Virus record (IMG/VR): IMGVR_UViG_3300025057_000003 | Span: 1-64,000 of that record | Length of the DNA: 64,000 nt | From: a virus | Reading direction: 5' to 3' (one strand) | Part shown: positions 1-11,218 of the stretch, piece after piece | How positions within the stretch are numbered: position 1 is the first letter of the stretch | How the letters are laid out: the number at the start of each line of letters is the position of its first letter | The notes under the pieces: generated by a model | The model's input: only the letters and a program-made list of their open reading frames with translations | Databases searched by the model: none | What the model was told of the DNA's origin: nothing | Translations under genes and position numbers: made by a program

Positions 1-437
1 CTGATTGCAAGTATACCAATAAACACACCTATACAAATTAGAATGTAGTTATCAGTAAATGCTACAGCTGAAAATATATTATCTATACTAAATACAATAT
101 CTACAAACTCAATAAGAACTACTGTTGACCAGAATTTATTTAAGAATAGTATCTTAAATGTTTTTGCTTCCGGATTATCAGAGTTTCTAAATGAACTTAT
201 ACAAAGATATACGAGATATAATCCACCTATAACTTTGAGGTATGTAAGTTGTATAAGATATACAGCAAACAACAATGCCAAGCCACGAAATACATATGCA
301 CCTACGATACCATATGTTAAGGCTTTCTTTTGTTGATTCTTTGGTAAGTCATTTACCATGGTAGATAATACAGCAGCATTATCTATGCTTAGTACTACTT
401 CAAGTAATACTAAGTTGAGAATAATAATTAAAATCAT
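1..437 (-). CDS. TerC-family integral membrane protein (partial, C-terminus outside window)
   Basis: The reverse strand from 437 is open to the window edge, giving 145 residues of an evidently longer protein. It is strongly hydrophobic and carries the duplicated TerC signature: EVVLSIDNAAV at about residues 13-23 and EFVDIVFSIDNI at about 110-121. Between them lies AYVFRGLALLFAVYLI (residues 47-62), typical of TerC membrane segments. TerC/Alx proteins are inner-membrane proteins linked to Mn2+ export, metal supply to secreted enzymes, and tellurite or phage-inhibition phenotypes. The ATG follows CAAAACCAAACATT, the A-rich leader used elsewhere here. It lies downstream of a tRNA-like element and a terminator, so it may have its own promoter. 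The family call is firm; the role in a phage is unknown and may be an acquired host gene. Confidence 0.9.
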   Translation of the reverse strand, partial: MILIIILNLVLLEVVLSIDNAAVLSTMVNDLPKNQQKKALTYGIVGAYVFRGLALLFAVYLIQLTYLKVIGGLYLVYLCISSFRNSDNPEAKTFKILFLNKFWSTVVLIEFVDIVFSIDNIFSAVAFTDNYILICIGVFIGILAI

Positions 438-2746: not shown

Positions 2747-3055
2747 ATGGAAGAACCACAAGAATGGGATGATGACCAGGAGTTAACTGACCTAGAAAAA
2801 ATCCAACTGGAAGAAATAATGTTAGCTGCCGCATATGAAAACTCATATAGGGTGCTAACTAATAAAATAGACTTTGCTGATCTAGTGGAGGAGAAGAACA
2901 ATATTGGTATTAGTGCTATTATGGCATATGATCCTACGTCAGGTATCCGCAAAGAGGAATTGGATAATATGATTAGGTTCTACATTGATCAGGATGAGCC
3001 TGAGTATTACTTACGTTGCGCGGAACTAAAAAAGATATATGATGAGATTGCTTAG
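2747..3055 (+). CDS. small acidic hypothetical protein
   Basis: A 102-residue, very acidic, largely helical protein (DDDQELTDLEKIQLEEIML near the N-terminus). The final 20 residues are also helical. The ATG at 2747 is chosen over 2717 because a promoter-like element fills the intervening bases. There is no signal peptide, membrane segment or metal motif. It is the first rightward gene, and its 3' end overlaps the start of the secreted-protein gene by 17 bases, implying translational coupling. Function unknown. Confidence 0.65.
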   Translation: MEEPQEWDDDQELTDLEKIQLEEIMLAAAYENSYRVLTNKIDFADLVEEKNNIGISAIMAYDPTSGIRKEELDNMIRFYIDQDEPEYYLRCAELKKIYDEIA

Positions 3056-3929
3056 TATTTTCTTATTGTTATGTACTACTGTTTACAGTCAAACCCCAAA
3101 TCCGTATGTTGAGGAGTTTGATAGCTTTGGTGGACCGGATGAGTGGGAGCTTGTCACGGGACAACCCAACACAGGATCTCATGGAGGGGAGTTATGCTAC
3201 AACGTATCTGGAACGTACATAGATGATACATACTATAGCTTTGAATCAGATACATTAGACTTTAGTTCTTGGGGAAGCGTTGAGGTGATCATGGTGATAT
3301 CTTCTAATCTTAGAAACGGAGATGTATTTTCTTTTTGGTATTATGAGGAAGTTGGTGGATGGACAGGATATAACATCTCTGGTATATCAGGAACGCGGTT
3401 TTTTACCATTCCTAACACAGCAACATTGTTAAGCTTTGATTTAAATACTAATTCAAACGGAAATGTCAATGGCAAATATGCACATGTAGAGTATTTAGAG
3501 ATATATACGGGGTTTGTACTACCAATTGAGTTATTAGACTTTACAGTAACACTAGATCGGGGTATCGTTGATATAAATTGGAGTACGGCATCTGAAGCAA
3601 ATAATGATTATTTTACAATTCAGCGTAGTCAAGACGCATATACGTGGGAAAATCTAAAAGAAATCAAAGGAGCTGGGAATAGTACCTCAACATTAAACTA
3701 CAATATAAAAGATCCTAAACCGTATTTAGGTACTTCGTACTACCGGCTAGCACAAACAGACTATGACGGGACAACTGAAATCTTTCAACCAGTGTCCGTA
3801 ACCATAGATGAAGCTTATATAATAAGAAGATACAACCAATTAGGACAAGATGTAGATGATAACTACAAAGGGTTTGTGATAGTATTAATGTCAGACGGTA
3901 GTATAAAAAAAATATTAAACTTTAATTAG
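3039..3929 (+). CDS. secreted T9SS-cargo-like protein of bacterial origin
   Basis: A 296-residue protein with a classic signal peptide (residues 1-18, LLSIFLLLCTTVYS then QTP). A beta-rich domain covers about residues 25-155. Next comes a segment typical of Bacteroidota secreted proteins: LPIELLDFTVTLDRGIVDI, then INWSTASEANNDYFTIQRS, then GTSYYRLAQTDYDGTTE. The C-terminus (about 262-296; YNQLGQDVDDNYKGFVIV, then SDGSIKKILNF) matches the closing motif of T9SS sorting domains, although the usual domain is longer. Such proteins are normally exported by the Sec and Type IX systems to the cell surface. The start could be either of two adjacent ATGs. Probably host-derived; its use to the phage (surface change, superinfection exclusion, virion decoration) is unknown. 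Confidence 0.85.
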   Translation: MMRLLSIFLLLCTTVYSQTPNPYVEEFDSFGGPDEWELVTGQPNTGSHGGELCYNVSGTYIDDTYYSFESDTLDFSSWGSVEVIMVISSNLRNGDVFSFWYYEEVGGWTGYNISGISGTRFFTIPNTATLLSFDLNTNSNGNVNGKYAHVEYLEIYTGFVLPIELLDFTVTLDRGIVDINWSTASEANNDYFTIQRSQDAYTWENLKEIKGAGNSTSTLNYNIKDPKPYLGTSYYRLAQTDYDGTTEIFQPVSVTIDEAYIIRRYNQLGQDVDDNYKGFVIVLMSDGSIKKILNFN

Positions 3930-3951: not shown

Positions 3952-3973
3952 GTTTTAATTTAAAAAAATCATT

Positions 3974-4501
3974 ATGAAAAAAATTTTAACTAAGGTTAAA
4001 AACCTTCTGCAAAAGAAAAGTGTACTAGTTGGTTTAGCACTAGCATTTTTACTTGTTTATTTAATTGCACCTAACAATAGTGTGGGTGACTGGAGAAAAG
4101 GTAGCTCAGCTTCATTACAAGCTACAGTAAGTATTGATCAATCTGCTTTTAGAAACAGCAACCTAGATGATTCAATCCTTGTACAAAAAAGTTCTGATTA
4201 TGAACAGTGTATTAAAGATGTAGTTATCAACCCTACTTGGTGTACACCTAGTCACGATGTAATAGCAACATGTAGTACAACATCAAGTGGAGTTTGTTGG
4301 GCAGGAGAAAACTCAAACTTTGAACTTAAGTTTCATAACAGTGATGGTACCTATGTAGGTTATATCAAGTTTCATGAACCTTACGCAACCCATTTTGAAG
4401 TTAAGGATATTCAATCTTACAACGGATATCTTGTATCTTGTAAAACTATTAGTACTGCTGATAGACATTCTAACTTTGAAGTAACTATATCAGTATATTA
4501 A
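3974..4501 (+). CDS. membrane-anchored protein, unknown
   Basis: A 175-residue protein with a basic N-terminus, one membrane segment (about residues 18-33, VLVGLALAFLLVYLIA) and a long outer domain. The outer domain has five cysteines that could form disulfides (CIKD, WCTP, ATCS, GVCW, VSCK). The topology suggests an N-in, C-out inner-membrane or periplasm-facing protein. It lies between the secreted-protein gene and the lysis amidase, so it could be a lysis partner or an envelope-modifying protein; no holin or spanin family was recognised. A Bacteroidota-type promoter element precedes it and an exact hairpin follows it. Confidence 0.7.
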   Translation: MKKILTKVKNLLQKKSVLVGLALAFLLVYLIAPNNSVGDWRKGSSASLQATVSIDQSAFRNSNLDDSILVQKSSDYEQCIKDVVINPTWCTPSHDVIATCSTTSSGVCWAGENSNFELKFHNSDGTYVGYIKFHEPYATHFEVKDIQSYNGYLVSCKTISTADRHSNFEVTISVY

Positions 4502-4551: not shown

Positions 4552-4872
4552 ATGAGTGAAGAAACCAACAAACAATTGACTCCAGAGGAGGCAAAAGCAA
4601 GACGTGCTGAAATTACTAAGTTTTATAAGGAACAGATTCCCCATTTAAAAGTGCAAGCAGAATATGAACGCTTAATGACGGAGATTGAAGAGAATCGCGC
4701 TAAGAGAGTGCAAGCTCAAGCTTTTATGGCTGATGCATACATGCAAATGGAAGGGGCAAAAGAAGATACTTCATCTACTACAACTAATGAAGCTAGAGAA
4801 GAGTTTAATCAAGCTATGAATAAGCAGGAGCCGCCTAAGAAAAAACTAAAAAGAGTCGTTGAAAATGAATAA
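4552..4872 (+). CDS. small coiled-coil phage protein
   Basis: A 106-residue, charged, helical protein. Its central part (about residues 15-70) has heptad-like spacing typical of a coiled coil (HLKVQAEYERLMTEIEENRA), and the C-terminus is lysine-rich (PPKKKLKRVV). Similar short proteins accompany the late genes of crAss-like phages; no function is known to me. Its last bases overlap the amidase start by eight bases, so the two are probably translated together. The start follows an AAAAATCAAATATT leader. Confidence 0.75.
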   Translation: MSEETNKQLTPEEAKARRAEITKFYKEQIPHLKVQAEYERLMTEIEENRAKRVQAQAFMADAYMQMEGAKEDTSSTTTNEAREEFNQAMNKQEPPKKKLKRVVENE

Positions 4873-5794
4873 GCTACTAAAGAAAGGTGATAAAGGACCA
4901 GAAGTAGTACGTTTACAAAAGATTCTTAACGTTATACCAGATGGTAAATTTGGGCCACAGACTGAAAAAGCTGTTATGCGCTTTCAGTTAGAGAAACAAT
5001 TAGTTGTTGATGGTATTGTTGGGAATAATACCTGGCATATGTTGTCATTATCTAAGTCTGATGGTGAAGCCATTGATGAAGATAGTGATATCATGTCTCA
5101 GCATTTTGAAACACAGTATGATCAACTTATTCACAGATATTATCTAGATAAGAATGAATATCTTCAAAGAAAAGGCAAGAATGAGTACTGTTTCTTGCAT
5201 CATACAGCAGGTAGAGAAAACCCATATAGGGTAATTGATCACTGGAACAAAGATACACGGGGTAGAGTTGCCACAGAATTTGTTATAGGGGGTCAATCTC
5301 ATACGGGCGGTCCAAGTGAGTATGATGGTGTTGTAGTACAAGCTTTTCCTGAGAGTGGATATGGTTGGCATTTAGGTAAAACTGGATCGGGCCACATGAA
5401 TAGACATTCTGTTGGTATAGAAATCTGTTCTGTCGGCTATGTTGAAGAAGATATGGGTAATTACTACACTTATTTCAAGTCACCTGTACATGAAGACCAA
5501 GTAATTAAGTTAGACTCTCCATTTAGAAGACGTCAATACTGGCATAAGTATTCAGATAGGCAAATAGCTGAAACAGAAAAGCTACTAAGGTACATTGCTG
5601 AAAGAGATGAGATTGATATGCGCTTAGGATTGCAGCAATTGATCAAAAAGTTTGGACCCAAAAAAGCATTTGAATTTCAAGAAGATGCTTACTATGGAAA
5701 AATTAAAGGATTGCTTACACATACAAATGTCAGAAAAACCAAGATGGACTGTTATCCAGATGAACGTCTTGTTGAAGTAATTTTAAAACTATAA
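4865..5794 (+). CDS. N-acetylmuramoyl-L-alanine amidase with peptidoglycan-binding domain (endolysin)
   Basis: A 309-residue enzyme. Residues 1-60 form a PG_binding_1 domain (KGDKGPEVVRLQKIL, DGKFGPQTEKAVMRFQ, DGIVGNNTW). Residues about 108-305 form an Amidase_2-type catalytic domain: FLHHTAG (H112/H113) gives the first zinc ligand, RHSVGIEICSVG is the conserved core strand, and LTHTNVR followed by KMDCYPDE supplies the C-terminal ligand region. It cleaves the bond between N-acetylmuramic acid and the stem peptide, releasing progeny at lysis. No signal peptide is seen, so a holin or similar partner is expected; the preceding membrane protein is a candidate. ATG 4865 is used in preference to an upstream TTG. 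Confidence 0.93.
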   Translation: MNKLLKKGDKGPEVVRLQKILNVIPDGKFGPQTEKAVMRFQLEKQLVVDGIVGNNTWHMLSLSKSDGEAIDEDSDIMSQHFETQYDQLIHRYYLDKNEYLQRKGKNEYCFLHHTAGRENPYRVIDHWNKDTRGRVATEFVIGGQSHTGGPSEYDGVVVQAFPESGYGWHLGKTGSGHMNRHSVGIEICSVGYVEEDMGNYYTYFKSPVHEDQVIKLDSPFRRRQYWHKYSDRQIAETEKLLRYIAERDEIDMRLGLQQLIKKFGPKKAFEFQEDAYYGKIKGLLTHTNVRKTKMDCYPDERLVEVILKL

Positions 5795-8873: not shown

Positions 8874-9045
8874 AAAAGAATATCTAGCGGAAGTAATTGC
8901 TGTAGGTGAAGATGTTAGTACCTTAAGTGTTGGGGATAGAGTGAAATACCATGAACACGCAACAGGTATTGACATGAAACATGATGGTGAGGACTGTATG
9001 CTAGTTAATGTGGATATGATATTTGCTAAAGTTGTAGATGAGTAA
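8779..9045 (+). CDS. GroES-like (Cpn10-fold) protein
   Basis: An 88-residue protein with the GroES layout. It begins MKIIPLGKKVLIKDVQP, like the first strand of Cpn10. Then come YLAEVIAVGED and LSVGDRVKYHEHATG, equivalent to the GroES core G-x-V-x-A-x-G and GD-x-V strands. It ends with a strand reading VNVDMIFAKV, like the terminal strand of GroES. The central segment (TTIIKTEIEKE) is where the mobile loop would lie. Phage GroES-like proteins can pair with host GroEL to fold the capsid protein, as T4 gp31 does. An upstream in-frame start (102 residues) is less likely because it lacks conserved sequence. It overlaps the terminase start. Confidence 0.8.
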   Translation: MKIIPLGKKVLIKDVQPSQYYPGTTIIKTEIEKEYLAEVIAVGEDVSTLSVGDRVKYHEHATGIDMKHDGEDCMLVNVDMIFAKVVDE

Positions 9046-11218
9046 GGTTATTCCAACATATGATAATGGTGAATGGACTACAACCACTTTTGAGAATGAT
9101 CAGGAGTGGTTGGACTTTTTATTGCCGTTATTTAAAGAACCCGGTCAATATAACTTTGATGAAACCTCCTATTTGTTTAATGAACAAGCTAGAATATTTA
9201 ATGATCAAGGATTCTATTGCAATAAACCTTTTAGATCTAAAGATTTTATTAAATATTGGGATGAGGAGAAAGATAAGTGTAGAAAAGGTGTAATATTTAA
9301 GAATAATGGTAATACTTGGTATCTTTGCAGAGACTACTACATGTGGTTAAACTTTCTTCCTATCTATGACAAAGAAGAAAAAGCGTATGGTTTTGCTAAA
9401 GTACGTGATGCTCAATATCACATGGCTCTTTATGAACTATTGGCAGAACTAAACCACAAACATTCAGCTATATTTAAGAAACGGCAGATAGCATCTTCTT
9501 ATTTCCATATGGGTAAGATTATAAACACATATTGGTTTGAAGAAGGATCTGTGTGTAAGATTGGGGCAAGTCTTAAAGACTATATCAATGATAAAGGTTC
9601 TTGGAAGTTCTTAGAAGAATATAGAGATTTTCTAAATGAGCATACGGCATGGTATAGACCTAGTAATCCAGAAAAGGTTTTGTTATGGCAGCAGCAAATA
9701 GAAGTTAAAATTGGTAATAGAAAAACTAGTAAAGGTTTAAAGTCTAAAATACAAGGTGCATCATTTGAAAAGAATGCAACAACCGGGGTAGGGGGACCGA
9801 CAACTTACTTCTTTCATGAGGAAGCTGGTATTGCACCTAAGATGATGGACACTTATGAATACCTTAGACCTGCAATGTCTTCAGGTATGATGACTACCGG
9901 TATGTTTATAGCGGCTGGATCTGTGGGTGATTTAGATCAATGTATTCCATTAAAGGATATGATATTAAATCCATTGAACAATGATATATATGCTGTAGAA
10001 ACTGATTTAATGGATGCTGATGGTACTAAAGGGTTGTCTGGTTTATTTATTCCAGAACAATGGTCAATGCCTCCACACATAGATGATTATGGCAACTCTA
10101 AAGTAGAGGAAGCTTTAGATGCCATTATGAAAGAGCGTGCTGAATGGAAGATTAAACTAAACCCTGAACAATATCAGTTAAGAATATCTCAGAAACCAAC
10201 TAATATAGCAGAAGGGTTTGCCTATAGGAAGGAATCAATATTTCCACAAGGGCTTATCCAGAAGCAACTTAAAAAGATTGAAGATAAAGAATATCATTAT
10301 GAGCATATAGAGCTTGAAAGAACTCATGATGGGATAAAAGCAAAAAGAACATCTAAGCTTCCAATATCTACTTTTCCTGTAGATAAAAAGATGCAAGATA
10401 AATCAGGATCTCTTGTTGTTTGGGAAAGACCTGTTAAGAATCCAGAGTGGGGTGCATACTATGCTTCTATTGACCCCGTATCTGAAGGTAAAACTACAAC
10501 GTCAGACTCATTGTGTAGTATTTATGTTTACAAAAATGCAGTAGAGATAACAAGAGAAACTCCAGAAGGTGTAGAGCAAATAATTGAACAGGACAAAATA
10601 GTTGCTGCATGGTGCGGTAGATATGATGACGTAAACAAAACACATGAGCAACTTCAATTAATTATTGAGTGGTATAATGCCTGGACGGTAGTTGAGAACA
10701 ACATATCATTGTTTATCCAGTACATGATATCTAAAAAGAAACAAAAATATCTTGTACCTAAACAACAAATACTCTTCTTAAAAGATCTTGGGTCTAACAA
10801 AACGGTCTATCAAGAATATGGTTGGAAGAATACAGGAACATTATTTAAATCTCATCTTATATCTTATGCTATTGAATTTTTACGTGAAGAAATAGATGAA
10901 GATCTTGATGAAGAAGGTAACACTATAAGCTCTACATTGGGTATAGAAAGAATACCAGATCCCATGTTACTAAAGGAGATGCTAGCATATCAACCGGGAG
11001 TAAACGTGGATAGATTAGTTTCATTTGCAGCATTGATTGCTTTTGCTAAAGTTCAGCAATCAAATAGAGGTTATTTGAAAGTTAAAGAAACAGATTCTTC
11101 CTTGGAAAAGTCACAAAATTTGTATAAATTAAAGTATAGTCCGTTTAAAAATATAGGACGTAGTAAGTCAACTTTAGCAAGAACAGTAAAAAGGAGCGGA
11201 TTTAAAAATTTTAGATAA
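9038..11218 (+). CDS. terL: terminase large subunit (ATPase and nuclease)
   Basis: A 726-residue packaging motor of crAss-like type. The ATPase part has an adenine/Walker A region KKRQIASSYFHMGK (about residues 147-160; a deviant P-loop) and Walker B with catalytic Glu TYFFHEEAG (E261/E262). The nuclease domain has an RuvC-like acidic triad: YASIDPV (D479), VVENN (E553) and PDPMLLKEM (D641). It pumps DNA into the capsid through the portal and cuts the concatemer. The length is as expected for the group. It starts eight bases inside the GroES-like gene, and its stop overlaps the portal start by one base. Confidence 0.95.
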   Translation: MSKVIPTYDNGEWTTTTFENDQEWLDFLLPLFKEPGQYNFDETSYLFNEQARIFNDQGFYCNKPFRSKDFIKYWDEEKDKCRKGVIFKNNGNTWYLCRDYYMWLNFLPIYDKEEKAYGFAKVRDAQYHMALYELLAELNHKHSAIFKKRQIASSYFHMGKIINTYWFEEGSVCKIGASLKDYINDKGSWKFLEEYRDFLNEHTAWYRPSNPEKVLLWQQQIEVKIGNRKTSKGLKSKIQGASFEKNATTGVGGPTTYFFHEEAGIAPKMMDTYEYLRPAMSSGMMTTGMFIAAGSVGDLDQCIPLKDMILNPLNNDIYAVETDLMDADGTKGLSGLFIPEQWSMPPHIDDYGNSKVEEALDAIMKERAEWKIKLNPEQYQLRISQKPTNIAEGFAYRKESIFPQGLIQKQLKKIEDKEYHYEHIELERTHDGIKAKRTSKLPISTFPVDKKMQDKSGSLVVWERPVKNPEWGAYYASIDPVSEGKTTTSDSLCSIYVYKNAVEITRETPEGVEQIIEQDKIVAAWCGRYDDVNKTHEQLQLIIEWYNAWTVVENNISLFIQYMISKKKQKYLVPKQQILFLKDLGSNKTVYQEYGWKNTGTLFKSHLISYAIEFLREEIDEDLDEEGNTISSTLGIERIPDPMLLKEMLAYQPGVNVDRLVSFAALIAFAKVQQSNRGYLKVKETDSSLEKSQNLYKLKYSPFKNIGRSKSTLARTVKRSGFKNFR

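Follow-up and report, generated by a model that had tools for sequence, protein, structure and literature searches.

A crAss-like phage gene that probably encodes a type IX secretion cargo protein with a short C-terminal signal

Sequence, structural models and analogy with published systems together make it quite probable that a gene of a crAss-like phage encodes a cargo protein of the bacterial type IX secretion system (T9SS) with a minimal (short) C-terminal signal (short CTD). The architecture of this protein, its conservation, the T9SS association of its module, its location in a phage and the purifying selection acting on it are direct observations. The analysed stretch of DNA (the window) comprises bases 1-64000 of the 115,584-base (115.6-kb) virus record IMGVR_UViG_3300025057_000003, and its features are collected in Table 1. 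An earlier first-pass annotation had proposed a secreted protein here, and the gene it described is real, being an intact plus-strand frame in which all of the quoted motifs are present. The existence of relatives, the kept synteny and the low dN/dS values indicate that the 296-aa protein is more than a chance ORF. The first 17 bases of its frame overlap the end of the upstream ORF, and no second gene of this kind was found among the ORFs of the window phage. The whole protein has no family match in Pfam (E<=1), NCBIfam (E<=5) or PHROGs; a profile search of PDB sequences returned chance-level matches (for instance hemagglutinin and gp120; E 0.02-1), which were discarded.

Table 1. Features of the cargo gene and its neighbors (window coordinates)
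Feature	Coordinates	Strand	Basis
Cargo gene, 296 aa	3039..3929	+	open frame; same-place orthologues in related phages; dN/dS 0.09-0.43
Predicted signal peptide, residues 1-17, cut before Gln18	3039..3089	+	hydrophobic h-region; AlphaFold helix 3-17
N-terminal cargo domain, residues 18-158, beta jelly-roll-like (moderate confidence)	3090..3512	+	model and fold matches
Middle FnIII-like beta sandwich, residues 161-256 (LPIELL...YYRLAQTDYDG)	3519..3806	+	AlphaFold, Foldseek
Linker, residues 252-259, candidate CTD cleavage site	3792..3815	+	6-13 residues ahead of motif B
Putative short CTD tail, residues 257-296, strands 261-265, 278-284, 289-294	3807..3926	+	two AlphaFold models
Motif B YNQLGQDV, residues 265-272	3831..3854	+	column counts; stretch that hhalign aligns to canonical CTDs
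Motif D position GFVIVLM, residues 278-284 (GxV/GxI instead of GxY)	3870..3890	+	column counts
SDG turn and motif E strand SDGSIKKILN, residues 285-294	3891..3920	+	column counts
Terminase large subunit	9038..11218	+	phrog_6681, E 5e-65
Endolysin (PG_binding_1 + Amidase_2)	4859..5794	+	Pfam 5e-13, 1.4e-12; conserved downstream neighbor
Small upstream gene, 112 aa	2717..3055	+	conserved neighbor of cargo gene

The tail of the protein (IIRRYNQLGQDVDDNYKGFVIVLMSDGSIKKILNFN) recovered no match to TIGR04183, TIGR04131 or PF18962 (Pfam E<=1, NCBIfam E<=5). With about 40 residues, three strands and no PNP, it differs from the type A domain, which is a seven-stranded Ig-like domain of at least 70 residues with PNP as its motif A. 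Likewise, the type B/C models (TIGR04131, NF033708) do not match the window protein, and NF033708 matches one of 56 relatives. However, the AlphaFold model of the C-terminal 136 residues (mean pLDDT 94.8) predicts an FnIII-like sandwich followed by a single three-stranded sheet, and the full-length model agrees with it on the tail. This arrangement recalls Prevotella intermedia, for which 48 short CTDs of 43-55 residues have been predicted, each a single three-stranded sheet retaining motifs B, D and E (PMC11969387). Several of these have been shown to undergo cleavage and C-terminal glycosylation, AlphaFold placed them into PorV in the same way as long CTDs, and P. intermedia was stated to be the sole species reported with both kinds of CTD (PMC11969387). 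Further, the final 22 residues of HBP35, containing motifs D and E, suffice for the secretion of GFP (PMC10202324).

Measured against the P. intermedia standard (40-55 residues), the window tail is predicted to be one three-stranded sheet, and an alignment of 48 tails revealed the expected invariant glycines in motifs B (G269, 48/48) and D (G278, 48/48), along with a basic residue in motif E (K/R291, 47/48). Motif B additionally retains N266 (45/48), Q (43/48) and V/I272 (47/48), and the motif E region D/N286 (48/48) and G287 (47/48). The motif D signature GxY (or GxN) is absent, with V/I/L at the Tyr position and GxV/GxI in most relatives, and for this reason we file the tail as a variant of the P. 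intermedia short CTD rather than as a full member; one sub-group of the P. intermedia CTDs likewise departs from GxY (PMC11969387). In profile-profile comparison by hhalign against 42 canonical CTDs the tail scored 19.4 (probability 28%), with motif B alone aligned; 60 column-shuffled decoys averaged 8.5 and none exceeded 16.1, so the match is weak yet above background. Foldseek with the C-terminal half retrieved FnIII-like matches only and no CTD structure, the tail being too small for such a search. The tail thus appears to be a complete, much shorter form of the sorting domain. The original proposal that the C-terminus is the end of a sorting domain stands as regards its T9SS-type character, with motifs B, D and E and three strands, but not as regards its being the end of a standard domain. 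That proposal was to be abandoned if TIGR04183, TIGR04131 and Por_Secre_tail found nothing, and literally they found nothing. This test is misleading, since the models in question cover long CTDs alone, and the idea of a sorting domain still holds because the tail appears to be a short CTD.

The domain preceding the tail provides a second line of evidence. In Foldseek searches it matched FnIII domains at E values of about 0.002-0.007. Bacterial genomes and viral contigs were scanned with an alignment of C-terminal halves (A2), which retrieved relatives from 191 viral and more than 580 bacterial loci, and tail lengths were tallied for the best 80 of each. The best 80 bacterial relatives comprise 72 with a long CTD, five with a short tail (L011, L012, L013, L022, L035) and three with unreadable ends, namely L046 and L048 (contig end) and L077 (undetermined bases), with L046 visibly inside a long CTD. 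Accordingly, 72 of the 77 readable relatives among these best 80 run on to a canonical CTD of the 'PNP...GxY...K' type, and the bacterial long CTDs mostly extend 170-195 residues from the LP motif. In contrast, a short tail ending 130-143 residues beyond the LP motif is present in 70 of the best 80 viral relatives, and the other 10 have a long CTD. With L046 taken as long, the short:long ratio is 5:73 in bacteria versus 70:10 in viruses (Fisher p=2e-27), a contrast that covers proteins with this middle domain, leaving out viral long CTDs without it, and that comes from one phage-built query favoring short tails in both scans, from a far larger bacterial pool and from a viral tally including near-duplicate contigs (56 viral sequences are left below 85% identity). 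Seven long-tailed viral relatives match TIGR04183 and PF18962, and most of the annotated plasmid relatives among the matches listed are labeled 'T9SS type A sorting domain-containing protein'. Judging from these sequences, the FnIII-like middle domain is a T9SS-cargo module in bacteria. Together, the middle module and the predicted short-CTD tail argue for the earlier view of T9SS-type cargo on a phage and point to a T9SS-bearing Bacteroidota host. The accompanying remark that phages rarely carry such cargo does not survive, given the about 190 viral loci with relatives and the three T9SS-tagged genes of Cryophage published in 2020 (Bellas et al., PMC7468147). A tree of the middle domain (97 columns) is poorly resolved; going by its starred branches, the viral short-tail label must have changed at least three times.

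A tail-only profile (A5) recovered 28 genes in 19 of 395 genomes of one class, indicating that the short form exists in bacteria but is rare there. The five source genomes examined encode 3-7 short tails each versus 89-136 TIGR04183 domains, and SprA is present in them; across the short-tail bacteria, proteins with a type A CTD number 89-150 or more. SprA was found in 19/19 short-tail genomes, but also in 385/395 sampled overall, and such near-universality leaves a co-occurrence test without power. Two Flavobacteriales or Crocinitomicaceae MAGs contain a tandem pair of short-tail genes (L022 3386-5618, L012 3386-5605) in the order ubiE, porT/sprT, a third gene (an FAD protein in L022) and the two short-tail genes, with porT/sprT matching NF052311 at 167 and 157 bits (cut-off 125). 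These tandem genes are chromosomal and lie beside a T9SS component; hence, short CTDs probably extend beyond P. intermedia.

With regard to the virus, the two ends of the record (window 1-274 and record 115311-115584, i.e. L010 11311-11584) are identical at 271 of 274 bases, which makes it probable that the about 115-kb phage genome is essentially complete and either circular or circularly permuted; the IMG/VR entry lists no end repeat despite this match. The record junction falls within a gene for a TerC-family membrane protein (PF03741, 138 bits; window 3-437 and L010 11094-11582, both on the minus strand). A prophage reading, with the edge TerC as a host gene, was dropped in light of the 274-base overlap of the record ends, which assigns the gene to the phage. 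Any tie between this TerC and the loading of metals into secreted proteins is speculation. Besides the terminase, PHROGs searches of the window identified a major head protein (phrog_11589) and a 2138-aa virion protein (phrog_37948), and these matches place the phage among the crAss-like phages. The closest annotated terminases are those of crAss-like cr*_1 phages (about 25% identity), with Flavobacterium phages such as FpV4 also matching. By sequence, then, the source virus is a crAss-like phage (Crassvirales), agreeing with this group in terminase, capsid and gene layout. No tRNA genes were found in the 64-kb window, no match to a Bacteroidota-type promoter pattern occurs near the cargo gene, and the upstream 112-aa protein has no family match in Pfam or PHROGs. 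An ORF for a membrane-anchored protein of 175 aa (3974-4501, plus strand) lies between the cargo gene and the endolysin block; it was not found in syntenic relatives and looks like a recent insertion specific to the window phage.

The N-terminus of the cargo protein (MMRLLSIFLLLCTTVYS, with Q after the predicted cut) resembles a Sec signal, with the helix modeled by AlphaFold at its hydrophobic segment, and such a segment is also present in 68 of 70 full-length viral relatives. The signal peptide expected of T9SS cargo is thus predicted here, as the first-pass annotation had it. The N-terminal domain was modeled with moderate overall confidence (pLDDT 75-90 at residues 61-140, low at 16-58), and its fold matches include a MAM-Ig module (2c9a) and GH2 sandwich domains. 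It was detected in 16 viral loci, always joined to the same C-terminal module, and in 0 of 399 genomes of one bacterial order (positive control run). The N-terminal domains of 56 viral members include MAM (10), CUB (6), P-domain (3) and G8 (3) types; viral members, as seen in their sequences, carry exchangeable N-terminal domains of extracellular binding types. These types, taken with the jelly-roll-like model, make a role in binding or adhesion likelier than catalysis, and we infer a sticky, lectin-like cargo protein. Jelly-roll and FnIII domains are also common in tail fibers, and the protein could be conceived of as a structural or receptor-binding virion component whose tail is merely CTD-like: its gene lies in a late block near the terminase, portal and capsid genes, tail fibers are among the distant fold matches, and it is the fastest-evolving gene of the locus, as receptor-binding proteins often are. 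We consider this improbable, because virion proteins assembled in the cytoplasm do without a signal peptide, the FnIII domain is present in 16/16 loci with this N-terminal domain and a T9SS-type tail in all those with complete ends, none of the 16 is fused to tail or fiber domains, and cargo genes next to porT on bacterial chromosomes carry this module too.

The cargo gene stays ahead of the endolysin-terminase block in related phages (including L091, L092, L098, L100 and L211-L216), and a homologue of the upstream ORF precedes it in L092, L098, L100 and L211-L216. Among these phages it is the fastest-diverging gene of the locus, with 57% identity between the window and L091 as against 93% for the terminase and 88% for the endolysin. 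In L092 the match is confined to the C-terminal half of the protein, the N-terminal domain having been replaced there. The dN/dS values, 0.09-0.27 for closer pairs and 0.43 for the window versus L091, indicate that the protein is maintained by purifying selection though changing fast. Equally improbable in our estimation as a virion role is that the phage carries a defunct cargo gene of host origin, with a truncated C-terminal signal and a product reaching the periplasm at most. The canonical long CTD is indeed cut by about half and a relative in the huge phage LR745206 is frame-broken, but 47-48 of 48 relatives keep the tail motifs, dN/dS stays well under 1, the genome place is kept among related phages, and short CTDs work in P. 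intermedia (PMC11969387).

In other phages the module lies beside a gene for a B12-type ribonucleotide reductase (L106, L107, L111 and others). The short-tail cargo genes of L106, L107, L111, L112, L114-L117, L122 and L129 adjoin this gene, and the adjoining ribonucleotide reductase is 77-82% identical to the window phage's own (record 73358-75217, minus strand). L155, L160 and L166 have no genes in common with the window phage in the stretch examined; their phage hallmark genes encode an RNA ligase (L155) and the major head protein (L160, L166). A surface or periplasmic protein unconnected to T9SS, its tail a small structural FnIII extension and its role, for instance, to help the endolysin in lysis, would suit a gene found near the endolysin gene throughout the clade and whose T9SS dependence is itself deduced, but it is the least probable of the alternatives, as elsewhere the module adjoins the ribonucleotide reductase gene or unrelated genes, the N-terminal domains are of extracellular binding types, and in bacteria the middle domain is coupled to T9SS signals.

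If the protein is T9SS cargo with a short CTD, it would be produced during infection of a T9SS-bearing Bacteroidota cell and exported via Sec by means of its signal peptide. In the periplasm the jelly-roll and FnIII domains would fold, following which the T9SS would recognize the 40-residue three-stranded tail, potentially through the motif B loop and the final two strands in a PorV-type docking as modeled for the P. intermedia short CTDs. Passage through the outer membrane would occur via SprA, with cleavage in the linker (around residues 252-259) probably removing the tail, and the jelly-roll domain would be displayed on the host surface or released to the medium. There it would most likely bind a glycan or surface protein, and might thereby change which agents can attach to the cell or infect it anew. 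As to the purpose, our first guess, about which we are rather doubtful, is that the protein masks the host surface or excludes superinfecting phages. The first-pass suggestions of a superinfection block, altered adhesion or an effect on gliding likewise have the rank of guesses. A broader conception, which we would back a little less readily than its opposite, is that short T9SS signals are a virus-favored export tag, used by several unrelated lineages of Bacteroidota phages with exchangeable binding domains, such that the host T9SS coats or decorates the host surface during lytic infection. With its short signal, phage cargo may also differ from host cargo in how it competes for the translocon or departs from it.

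The presence of the same short tag in dozens of other phages suggests that phages often borrow the bacterial T9SS export machine. As standard sorting-domain models do not detect the tail at all, phage secreted proteins of a seemingly widespread class have been left as 'hypothetical', and the A5 alignment offers a ready HMM for finding short-tail cargo. Our literature search found no paper on crAss-like phages with T9SS cargo and no description of short CTDs in phages or of a phage preference for the short form; thus, short CTDs in phages appear to be new. If export is true, lytic crAss-like phages use a Bacteroidota-specific secretion system, which bears on the management of the host surface, and the short tail offers another, naturally occurring test case for the minimal T9SS signal, which has so far been reported from one species.

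Compared by published description, the P. intermedia short CTDs and the window protein share a tail of about 40-55 residues, a three-stranded sheet, closely spaced motifs B, D and E, a folded domain ahead of the tail and a linker where cleavage would fall. The window tail differs in being phage-borne, in having GxV/I rather than GxY/GxN at motif D and in its extra SDG turn. With the type A domain (TIGR04183/PF18962) there is in common the same FnIII module ahead of it in bacteria, an alignable motif B and a similar G...K spacing of the final two strands; however, the window tail is without the first strands with the PNP motif and without the strands between motifs B and D. The cargo proteins of three huge phages also combine a signal peptide, the FnIII module and a T9SS-type C-terminus, in that order. 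Unlike the window protein, those of LR756504 (L006 3539-4528, 636 kb) and LR756500 (L007 3449-4558, 462 kb) end in long, canonical-looking T9SS CTDs, whereas LR745206 (L005 2697-4375, a 634-kb phage) has a short-tail gene that is apparently frameshift-split near locus position 3971. Finally, Cryophage resembles the window phage in encoding proteins that bear a tag for the host T9SS and vary in their cargo domains (PMC7468147), but in that one cryoconite phage the tags are type A (long) domains and the cargo is endoglucanase, GH39 and PA14, whereas here the CTD is short, the cargo lectin-like and the carriers are crAss-like and other phages. Thus, phage T9SS cargo (Cryophage) and short CTDs (P. 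intermedia) each have a precedent, and it is their combination that appears to be new.
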